Positions 44,599-47,771 of a DNA stretch of 64,000 nucleotides are shown piece after piece (position 1 is the first letter of the stretch; the number at the start of each line of letters is the position of its first letter). A program made the position numbers and the translations under genes. This DNA is from Burkholderiales bacterium (lineage in GTDB: Bacteria > Pseudomonadota > Gammaproteobacteria > Burkholderiales > WYBJ01). The stretch spans positions 62,001 through 126,000 of the forward strand of contig JALHQN010000009.1 in assembly GCA_022841915.1 (NCBI GenBank), given 5' to 3'. The notes beneath the pieces are model-generated. The model made no database searches and was not told where the DNA came from. It saw only the letters and a program-made list of their open reading frames with translations.

Positions 44599-45915
44599 AT
44601 GAATTCCTCTGTCCCACGCGTGGGCTTCGTTTCGCTCGGCTGCCCCAAGGCCACGTCCGATTCCGAGCGCATCCTCACCCAACTGCGTGCGGAAGGCTAT
44701 GCGATCTCGCCCAGCTACCAGCAGGCCGATCTCGTCATCGTCAACACCTGCGGCTTCATCGATGCGGCCGTCGAGGAATCGCTCGATGCCATCGGCGAAG
44801 CCTTGAGCGAAAACGGGCGGGTGATCGTGACCGGCTGTCTCGGTGCCAAGGGCGATGTCGTGCGCAAGGCGCATCCGAGCGTCCTGGCCGTCACCGGCCC
44901 GCATGCGCTCGACGAAGTCATGGGTGCCGTGCACGATCACCTGCCCCAGCCGCACGATCCGTTCACCGACCTGGTGCCGCCGCAGGGCATACGCCTGACC
45001 CCGCGACACTACGCGTATCTGAAGATTGCCGAGGGCTGCAATCACAAGTGCACGTTCTGCATCATTCCGTCCATGCGAGGCAAGCTGGTCAGCAGGCCGA
45101 TCGGCGAGGTGATGAACGAAGCCGAGCATCTGGTTCGCGCAGGCGTGAAGGAACTCCTGGTCATTTCACAGGACACGAGCGCCTATGGCGTCGACGTCCG
45201 GTACCGCACGGGCTTCTGGAACGGCCGCCCCGTCAAGACGCGGATGACCGAACTGGCCGCGGCACTGGGCTCGCTCGGCGTCTGGGTGCGGCTGCACTAC
45301 GTCTACCCGTATCCGCATGTCGACGAAGTCCTGCCGCTGATGGCGGAAGGCAAGATCTTGCCCTACCTCGATGTGCCTTTTCAGCATGCGAGCCCGCGCA
45401 TCCTCAAACTGATGAAGCGGCCCGCCGATGCCGAGAACACTCTCGAGCGGATACGCCGCTGGCGCGACATCTGTCCGGACATCGTGTTGCGCAGCACCTT
45501 CATCGTCGGCTTCCCGGGCGAGACAGCCTCGGAATTCGAGCAGTTGCTCGATTTCCTGCGCGAGGCGCAACTGGACCGCGTCGGATGCTTCGCGTATTCA
45601 GACGTCGAAGGCGCGACGGCCAATGCCCTGCCTGATCCTCTCCCCGAATCCCTCAAGCAGGAGCGGCGCGAACGCTTCATGCAGGTGCAGTCCGAGATCA
45701 GCGCCGCGCGGCTGCGCGCCAAGCTCGGCCGGACCATGACGGTTCTGGTGGATGAAGTCGACGGTCGACGTGTGCGGGCCCGCAGCCCCGGGGACGCTCC
45801 CGAGATCGACGGCACAGTGATCGTGAACGGAGCGCGTAAACCCGCGGTCGGCGATCTGATCGACGTCAAGATCACGCGCGCAAGCGAACACGACCTTTGG
45901 GGCCGTGCATTGTAG
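44599..45915 (+). CDS. rimO: Ribosomal protein S12 methylthiotransferase RimO
   Basis: 438 residues. N-terminal MTTase domain with cluster cysteines in [20 protein letters not shown] and VTGCLGAKG; radical-SAM domain with CxxxCxxC at 147, 151 and 154 ([11 protein letters not shown]); C-terminal TRAM domain. Adds a methylthio group to Asp88 of S12. The YcaO-type protein at 3446 may be its partner. Confidence 0.96.
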
Positions 45916-45954: not shown

Positions 45955-46863
45955 ATGCGCATGAGCAAGCAACTCGGGGCAGTCGCAGCGCTGCTCGTAC
46001 TGACCGCGTACCTGGGCCATGCTCATGCCCAGGAACGCTTTTCCCTGTTCGTGGGCAGCGACCCGAAAACGGTCGAGCGCATGGTGAAGCTCGCCGGATT
46101 GCGTGATCACGAAACGGCAATCGACCTCGGTTCGGGAGACGGCCGCATCGTGCTTGCAGCGGCGCAGTCCAATCCCACGGTCCGCGGGATCGGAGTCGAT
46201 ATCGATGCCAAGCTCGTCAAGCAGTCTGCGGCAAAGGCCGAAGAACTCGGTCTCGCCGACCGCGTGCGTTTCGAGCACCGCAACGCCTTCGACGCGGATC
46301 TGGGCAAGGTCGATGTCATCTTCATGTGGTTCTTCCCCGAGTTGATGCGACTGGTACGCGTCAAGATTCTCGAGCAGGCGCGTCCCGGTACGCGGGTGGT
46401 TGCCGCCCTTTGGGGGATGGGCAGTTGGACACCCGATGCCGTCGACAAAGAGCCGACCGAAGTGAGCATGTGGATCGTCCCCGCGCGCGTGGAAGGCTCC
46501 TGGGACTGGCAGCTCGATGTGGGCGGCGTGCAGCGGACCTACTCCGCAATTTTCGAGCAGCAATTTCAGACGTTGGAAGGCGTGGTGCGAACCGGCAACC
46601 GGCATGGCATCTTCCACGACCTCAAGCTTAGCGGCGAGCAAGTGTCGTTCGTGCTGATGATGACCTTGCCCAACATCGGCTTCACCCGGCACGAGTTCAC
46701 TGGGCGCGTGACCGGAAACACGATGCAGGGTGCTGTGAAGATCACCCTGCCCCCGAAAACCAACGAAGAGGACGAGGAACTGCAGAGTCTCGTACTGCCA
46801 TGGCAGGCGAGACGAACCGTCACCTCGGCCTTCTTTGCTCCCACCGGTGTCGACATTCGCTGA
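45955..46863 (+). CDS. Exported class I SAM-methyltransferase-fold protein (copy 1)
   Basis: 302 residues. Signal peptide (hydrophobic core AALLVLTAYLGHAHA, cleavage before QERFSLF). Then FVGSDPKTVERMVKLAGL and a Rossmann methyltransferase core with motif I AIDLGSGDGRIVLAA, acidic motif II GVDIDAKL, and NAFDADLGKVDVIFMWFFPE. The last ~130 residues form a beta-rich domain (HEFTGRVTGNTMQGAVKITLP). SAM is not known in the periplasm, so an exported SAM enzyme is odd. Tandem paralogue of the next gene, 8 bp away. ATG 45955 or 45961 may be the start. Confidence 0.78.
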   Translation: MRMSKQLGAVAALLVLTAYLGHAHAQERFSLFVGSDPKTVERMVKLAGLRDHETAIDLGSGDGRIVLAAAQSNPTVRGIGVDIDAKLVKQSAAKAEELGLADRVRFEHRNAFDADLGKVDVIFMWFFPELMRLVRVKILEQARPGTRVVAALWGMGSWTPDAVDKEPTEVSMWIVPARVEGSWDWQLDVGGVQRTYSAIFEQQFQTLEGVVRTGNRHGIFHDLKLSGEQVSFVLMMTLPNIGFTRHEFTGRVTGNTMQGAVKITLPPKTNEEDEELQSLVLPWQARRTVTSAFFAPTGVDIR

Positions 46864-46871
46864 TTTCCATC

Positions 46872-47771
46872 ATGAACCCGACAAAAAAAATGGCTCAATT
46901 CCTGCTTTTGCTTGCATTCTTCTTCGGCCACTCCGCCCTCGCGCAGGAGCGTTTCTCCATCTTCGTCGGCAGCGATCCGGCCAACGTCGAACGCATGCTG
47001 AAGCTTGCAGGCCTGCGCGACGATGACATCGCCATCGACTTGGGCTCGGGGGACGGGCGCATCGTCATCGGCGCCGCGCTGGCGAATCCGAAGCTGCGTG
47101 GAATAGGCGTGGATATCGACGCCAAGCTGGTCAAGGAGGCGACAGCTGCGGCAGACAAGCAGGGCGTCGGCGATCGTGTTCGTTTCATCCACCAGAACGC
47201 CTTCGACGCCGATCTATCCAAGGCATCGGTGATCTTCATGTGGCTGTGGCCCGAATTGCAGACCATGCTGCGCCCCAAGATTCTCGCAGAGGCCCGGCCC
47301 GGCACCCGCGTGGTGACCAACGTCTGGGACTTAGGCAGTTGGCAGCCCGATCGCGTCGACACGGACGGGCCCCAGATCAGCATGTGGGTCGTTCCGGCTC
47401 GCATCGAGGGCAACTGGCGCTGGGAATTGCCGATACGCGGCGCCAGCCGAACCTACTCGGCGCTGCTCGAGCAACGCTTTCAGCGCGCCGAGGGCTTTGC
47501 ACGGGTGGGCAATCGGCGGTCGGTGCTGCGAGAAGTCCAGTTGCGCGGGGACGAGGTCAAGGTGCTGCTCGACATGACCGTCGACGGTGCGGGTTTCGCC
47601 CGCCACGAATTCACCGGCAAGGTTAACGGCAGCACGATCGAAGGCAGCGTTCGCATCAGGCTGAGCAGCGCCAATGAACGCGGCCCCGAGGAGACGATCG
47701 TCCTGCCGTGGCGTGCTCAGCGGGTGGCCGATGCAGACTATCTCGCCCCGACGGGCCTGGACAAGCTTTAG
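46872..47771 (+). CDS. Exported class I SAM-methyltransferase-fold protein (copy 2)
   Basis: 299 residues. Signal peptide MNPTKKMAQFLLLLAFFFGH ending ALA-QERFSIF; then the same layout as copy 1: FVGSDPANVERMLKLAGLRDDD, motif I AIDLGSGDGRIVIGAA, GVDIDAKLVKEA, IFMWLWPELQ, and a beta-rich C-terminus (HEFTGKVNGSTIEGSVRIRLS). The two are clearly tandem duplicates, over half identical by eye, and both keep the SAM-binding loop. Begins 8 bp after copy 1, so they form an operon. Substrate unknown. Confidence 0.78.
   Translation: MNPTKKMAQFLLLLAFFFGHSALAQERFSIFVGSDPANVERMLKLAGLRDDDIAIDLGSGDGRIVIGAALANPKLRGIGVDIDAKLVKEATAAADKQGVGDRVRFIHQNAFDADLSKASVIFMWLWPELQTMLRPKILAEARPGTRVVTNVWDLGSWQPDRVDTDGPQISMWVVPARIEGNWRWELPIRGASRTYSALLEQRFQRAEGFARVGNRRSVLREVQLRGDEVKVLLDMTVDGAGFARHEFTGKVNGSTIEGSVRIRLSSANERGPEETIVLPWRAQRVADADYLAPTGLDKL

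Follow-up and report, generated by a model that had tools for sequence, protein, structure and literature searches.

Within the window, by which we mean the whole 64,000-nucleotide stretch of DNA that was analysed, two intact open reading frames, here called A and B, stand in tandem behind a rimO-like gene and are predicted to encode exported proteins with a class I methyltransferase fold. The features of this locus are as follows.

44599..45915, forward strand: rimO-like gene (S12 methylthiotransferase), directly upstream of A, assigned from its open reading frame and synteny
45955..46863, forward strand: gene A, predicted exported class I methyltransferase-fold protein of 302 aa
45955..46029, forward strand: predicted signal peptide of A, residues 1-25, with cleavage between AHA and QERF (GHAHA/QERF), from sequence and the family-wide test
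46042..46485, forward strand: methyltransferase domain of A, about residues 30-177, from Pfam, the model, and fold and profile matches
46123..46146, forward strand: motif I of A, DLGSGDGR, residues 57-64, from sequence and conservation
46468..46860, forward strand: predicted C-terminal avidin-like eight-stranded barrel of A, residues 172-302, from the model and VIA-align
46872..47771, forward strand: gene B, predicted exported class I methyltransferase-fold protein of 299 aa from the best start
46872..46943, forward strand: predicted signal peptide of B, residues 1-24, with cleavage between ALA and QERF (GHSALA/QERF), from sequence and the family-wide test
47037..47060, forward strand: motif I of B, DLGSGDGR, from sequence and conservation
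47382..47768, forward strand: C-terminal barrel domain of B, from alignment to the domain of A

The upstream gene we take to be rimO from recognition of its sequence, without a family search. Its stop lies 39 bp ahead of A, and 8 bp separate A from B, an alternative upstream start for B being possible at 46800. Both proteins score over the cut-off of Pfam Methyltransf_31, and they are 58% identical over 281 aa. The gene order is retained, with both orthologues intact, on a Burkholderiales MAG contig (L023), and A and B occur together in two of the four genomes of the genus. Both genes are under purifying selection: relative to the L023 orthologues, A has a dN/dS of 0.125 (0.105 in the methyltransferase domain) and B one of 0.214 (0.122 in that domain). 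The preliminary description of this DNA, which had been made from the sequence of the window, treated A and B as a tandem duplication, and they are one; they are not a private pair, however, but two of the 19 copies in the source genome.

A and B thus come from a large family whose genes have been duplicated again and again, heavily so in some Burkholderiales. The genus's three other genomes hold 13, 11 and 16 members, and the relative G014 has 16, with 14 of them inside 20 kb of one contig. At the thresholds used, at least one member was found in 52 of 250 genomes sampled from the order, 6 of 229 from the class and 9 of 398 from the phylum, the source genome being included in each sample. Copy numbers per genome in these three samples are lower bounds (scoring covered 6 to 10 candidates in each genome), and fuller counts come from the four genus genomes and from a set of 41 genomes; a contig scan with A alone as query found one locus. 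Named carriers include the plasmids of Chelatococcus sp. CO-6 and Agrobacterium salinitolerans and the cyanobacterium Gloeothece.

The N-termini of A and B are of the classical signal-peptide type by sequence, as the preliminary description had claimed, and the same appears to hold well beyond the pair. A strict signal-peptide rule accepts 194 of the 220 family members whose 5' end is closed. Among the controls it accepts 13 of 16 periplasmic TctC proteins, 323 of 2200 shuffles, 12 of 240 internal segments and none of the 33 N-termini from cytosolic proteins. This rule is the first of five settings, the other four of which pass 153 to 180 of the 220 members and, each time, 0 of the 33 cytosolic N-termini. 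A loose rule was dropped: it accepted 208 of 220 members, yet 12 of the 33 N-termini from cytosolic proteins passed as well, and so did 51% of the shuffled segments. An initial scan had comprised 151 ORFs, from which 14 that lacked the motif regex (mostly fragments) were left out, giving 132 of 137 with a signal; for the later set of 227 distinct members a methyltransferase core was required. The cysteine content of the mature proteins would be an independent, though indirect, sign of an oxidising compartment. Outside motif I, 184 of 218 complete members have no mature cysteine, and the rest have two (23 members), one (8) or a larger number (3); there are 21 CxxxC pairs in the member set, and the cysteine frequency of 0.0012 compares with 0.0011 in the periplasmic TctC control and 0.003-0.015 in cytosolic controls (with the exception of ETF-alpha, at 0). 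Judged from sequence, then, export is a well-supported trait of the whole family. Lipoprotein anchoring of A and B was considered and rejected, the lipobox being absent in both. A relative at L160:4205-5164 has an apparent lipoprotein-type signal (LLTGC), which would tether that protein to a membrane.

To our knowledge, SAM-dependent methylation in bacteria is taken to be cytosolic, and the tension between export and a cytosolic cofactor to which the preliminary description drew attention is both real and conserved across the family. The motifs on which it rests, DLGSGDGR and the acidic GVDID, are indeed present and intact in A and in B. Moreover, D57, G59 and G63, together with an acid (D or E) at position 82, are found in 227 of 227 distinct members, and G61 (221 of 227), D62 (220) and R147 (223) are nearly as constant, so that conservation of the ligand site appears well supported. 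In an AlphaFold2 model of A the core block has pLDDT values mostly of 88-98 and adopts a Rossmann-like methyltransferase fold. The structures that it resembles most are 5bxy, solved in complex with SAH (TM-score by target 0.89, rmsd 1.2), and aKMT, solved with SAM or SAH (0.84-0.86). The former comes from Salinibacter ruber and was deposited under the name 'RNA methyltransferase'; of the solved structures it is the nearest (identity 38-39% across 145 aligned columns), and it is a 158-residue construct that lacks the barrel domain.

The comparison with aKMT, the broad-specificity protein lysine methyltransferase of Sulfolobus islandicus (NF041081; PDB 5fa8, 5fad, 5jwj), is instructive for what is shared as well as for what is not. 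The profile of the family scores 200 bits against aKMT and 234 bits against 5bxy, and is collinear across the full methyltransferase domain, including the substrate side. A and B have the collinear core, motif I, the acidic motif and the fold in common with aKMT; the aligned aKMT chain, in contrast, has neither a signal peptide nor a C-terminal domain, whereas A and B have both and differ on the substrate side. Individually they reach 67.7 and 104 bits against NF041081, for which the curated cut-off is 200, and they are therefore not placed in the curated aKMT family. The substrate-side motifs of aKMT (YVPTP, LLxxxN, RVVSHxF and WxP) are kept in the family profile, but A and B deviate at several positions: FVGSDP replaces VPTP, FMWFFP or FMWLWP replaces the Y-L-L-P stretch, and residue 151, a histidine in 174 of 227 members, is alanine in A. 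Their clade comprises 38 members (FastTree support 1.0) that mostly have F-x-x-S-type residues where others have VPTP. The catalytic half of A and B may well work like aKMT; a lysine substrate as something proven by homology was a proposal that we rejected, since homology gives no such proof.

Other lysine methyltransferases resemble A and B at the level of description. Mitochondrial FAM173A/B (ANT-KMT and ATPSc-KMT) are, in the retrieved part of PMC9006661, distant aKMT homologues with alphaproteobacterial relatives that act at a membrane; they differ in being mitochondrial with a non-cleaved targeting region, and that part of the source describes no exported enzyme with a barrel. Two outer-membrane protein lysine methyltransferases, PKMT of Rickettsia and the Acinetobacter Tol 5 enzyme KmtA, act on lysines in surface proteins (PMC11784438, PMC10450907, both in the portions retrieved). 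In those portions these enzymes, likewise, are not described as exported proteins with a barrel, and a term search of the retrieved text of PMC11784438 gave no mention of the periplasm or of a signal peptide on the enzyme.

The beta-rich C-terminal domain that the preliminary description saw as shared by the two proteins takes the form, when that of A is modelled alone, of eight antiparallel strands (pLDDT 75.8, from four sequences only). Structure prediction for A and for this domain, which the same description had proposed as a check, accordingly yields a methyltransferase fold close to SAM- and SAH-bound enzymes joined to an avidin-like barrel. The barrel model aligns with those of avidin and streptavidin with a VIA-align Z of up to 12.6 and an rmsd of 2.7 over 101 residues at about 12% identity, and the domain is not classed as an avidin on that account. 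Foldseek by itself gave weak matches (best E 0.025), and a Pfam search of the barrel returned no family over its cut-off. A shared avidin-like fold, taken from a model, would by itself reveal no function; the barrel probably binds a substrate or a partner.

A survey of gene neighbours in relatives, which had also been suggested at the outset, uncovered a recurrent linkage to an exchanger. Among the neighbours of 28 family loci were an APC permease at 15 and a fused MFS/spermidine synthase at 14. Because these loci had been picked for the family, the permease was searched for independently in the same 250 order genomes (E <= 1e-90). It was found in 41 of them, and 39 of these 41 are also family-positive, against a base rate of 52 in 250; the corresponding Fisher test (6e-32) overstates the case because the genomes are related, and the co-occurrence extends over genomes of 11 family codes. 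The exchanger was not detected at this threshold in 13 of the 52 family-positive order genomes, among them G772, which has one beside a family gene on reading of the locus. Of 43 exchanger copies, 36 adjoin a family gene (35 within 600 bp, plus that of G700 at 75 bp), all on the same strand except in G829; the seven without a family gene nearby are in G802, G001 (a second copy), G702 (at a contig edge), G002, G773, G808 and G790. Outside the order, seven of 13 family loci in 12 genomes have an adjacent same-strand permease (46-54% identity), and the six that do not include three apparently signal-less relatives (G112, G477 and G080). Remoter permeases of 39-45% identity in the phylum genomes G404, G522 and G537 have no family member nearby. 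On the Chelatococcus and Agrobacterium plasmids the exchanger again stands beside a family gene.

What is new here is the tie between the genes of the family and a single clade of amino-acid exchangers of the SLC7/LAT type. Neither the exported family nor its pairing with an exchanger is described in the portions of the literature that our searches returned, in keeping with the earlier impression of an uncharacterised role; the 19-member family and the linkage itself had escaped the preliminary description because they lie outside the window. SLC7 light chains and their bacterial homologue are obligate amino-acid antiporters, the usual cargo of LAT exchangers is ordinary amino acids, and the yeast SAM permease is also an APC protein. 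Among solved transporters, the linked permease is nearest to the SLC7/LAT light chains (xCT, y+LAT, b0,+AT, LAT1/2) and the bacterial homologue (6f2g), with alignments that span almost all of the permease (E as low as 8e-51), and it scores under every NCBIfam cut-off. SAM is a cargo that we infer for it from its company. A and B themselves are not at the exchanger locus: they follow the rimO-like gene, and the exchanger of the source genome lies on another contig (C3). On two alphaproteobacterial plasmids (L163:3824-6217 and L164:2452-4666), the exported methyltransferase that adjoins the permease has a CxxxC preceding its barrel.

Two further neighbours recur at the arrays. Fused MFS/spermidine synthases are found at L011:7409-9019 (contig C3 of the source genome) and at 13 homologous loci, a linkage that is real and is restricted to families f1, f12 and f280 (17 of 250 genomes, 17 of 17 family-positive). 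In 13 of the 14, seven membrane spans are predicted from hydropathy, and the positive charge of the loops puts the N-terminus within the cell and the enzyme domain on its outer side, so that by this simple prediction the enzyme domain, which has a SAM-like fold, would face the periplasm. The gene for the chaperone HtpG (Hsp90), at L011:14503-16434 and nine more array loci, adjoins the permease or the array at 10 of the 28 loci; as a partner of the family it was set aside, being confined to two families.

The explanation that we tentatively favour, while granting that it may well be wrong, is that A and B are extracytoplasmic, SAM-binding methyltransferases of the aKMT type that carry a barrel, and that the linked exchanger supplies SAM and removes SAH. 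According to this model, the family would have been exported early and then multiplied in some Burkholderiales, an SLC7/LAT-type antiporter would send SAM outward and bring SAH back in, and the exported enzymes would methylate amino groups (by descent, those of lysines) of envelope or exported proteins, with every copy having its own target and the avidin-like barrel adding target binding. Catalysis by the family proteins is presumed here, as is protein lysine as the substrate; in the case of A and B, whose motifs on the substrate side depart from those of the rest, this last step is the least secure. Given this change and their position off the exchanger locus, A and B likely have a specialised target or partner role. 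More doubtful is a broader scheme of extracytoplasmic methylation, in which a LAT-type SAM/SAH antiporter would feed the duplicated exported lysine-type methyltransferases while the membrane-anchored MFS/spermidine synthase faces the same pool. A SAM pool in the periplasm is without precedent in the portions of the literature that our searches returned. With an exported family that has an invariant SAM site and a linked exchanger, the question of whether there is one becomes directly testable on a named candidate transporter and named enzymes, and the cultured carriers (Chelatococcus and Agrobacterium strains with a plasmid-borne pair) are open to simple genetics. If the model is true, it would add a new bacterial compartment for methyl chemistry and would suggest that envelope proteins are modified in a way for which no one has so far looked.

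Of the three ways out of the tension offered in the preliminary description (a periplasmic methyl donor, an altered ligand or activity before export), the first is strengthened by the LAT-type exchanger that accompanies the family. The same linkage can nevertheless be read in the opposite direction. The methyltransferase fold may be a periplasmic receptor that captures SAM, SAH or some related compound (adenosyl or amino-acid) from outside and passes it to the LAT-type permease to be taken up, with no methyl transfer taking place. Close linkage to a permease is typical of a binding protein and its transporter, the SAM side does not vary whereas A and B are altered on the substrate side, and an avidin-like barrel is a binding fold. 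We consider this reading unlikely, although it deserves serious attention, given that most members hold the full aKMT substrate side, which would be superfluous in a simple receptor, that a secondary exchanger of the LAT kind requires no binding protein, and that 19 copies per genome are hard to square with a single nutrient.

Activity before export is kept in play by Tat-type signals in part of the family. Strict twin-arginine motifs ([STDN]RRxF[LIVK]) occur in 11 of 220 members, including the nearest relatives of A and B beyond the pair (DRRTFL, SRRSFL and TRRHFL), and a loose RR rule accepts 55 of 220 members compared with 2 of 13 TctC controls. Such members would fold in the cytosol and could there serve co-exported clients or carry SAM out for one turnover. 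In A, B and most of the family the signals are Sec-type and lack RR, so that these proteins should cross unfolded; a single turnover is also at odds with strong conservation and duplication, and the exchanger would be left unexplained. We accordingly think it improbable that the family as a whole acts or loads SAM before crossing.

A role for a different ligand or reaction, for example as an adenosyl-amino-acid lyase or a structural pseudo-enzyme for which the SAM motifs have been retained, seems to us about equally improbable. One argument for it lies in the A/B clade, where motif I is altered (DLGSFDGR or DLGSGNGQ) in 12 of 38 members, forming two orthologue sets of six sequences each that are conserved over several genomes. 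The standard SAM loop would thus be dispensable in some relatives, and these sets, together with the substrate-side change, suggest functional drift in the clade, though A and B hold the full SAM motif. The MFS/spermidine synthase at the arrays, with its SAM-like fold and its predicted periplasm-facing orientation, also speaks for such a role. Against another ligand stand the motif-I aspartate and the ribose-binding acid, present in every one of the 227 members, and the SAM and SAH in the nearest structures. Among the array members of the clade, those at L039:2190-3314 and L047:2238-3350, together with orthologues in family f12 genomes, are candidate pseudo-enzymes: their motif I is altered, and their conservation suggests that selection maintains them.

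It is very improbable that the N-termini are not functional signals and that the proteins are ordinary cytosolic methyltransferases, as the location of SAM and the apparent lack of a signal peptide in the G112, G477 and G080 relatives might suggest, in view of the strict-rule result, the depletion and pairing of cysteines, and a signal sequence that drifts freely yet stays hydrophobic (dN near 1 over the first 25 residues).

Members of the family are also carried on phage-like contigs. On the IMG/VR contigs L129:5001-5597, L135:4818-5480 and L141:4944-5510, the relatives start with a signal-like stretch, and L135 and L140 have a common cysteine-rich stretch (NPxCVMC) ahead of the domain.
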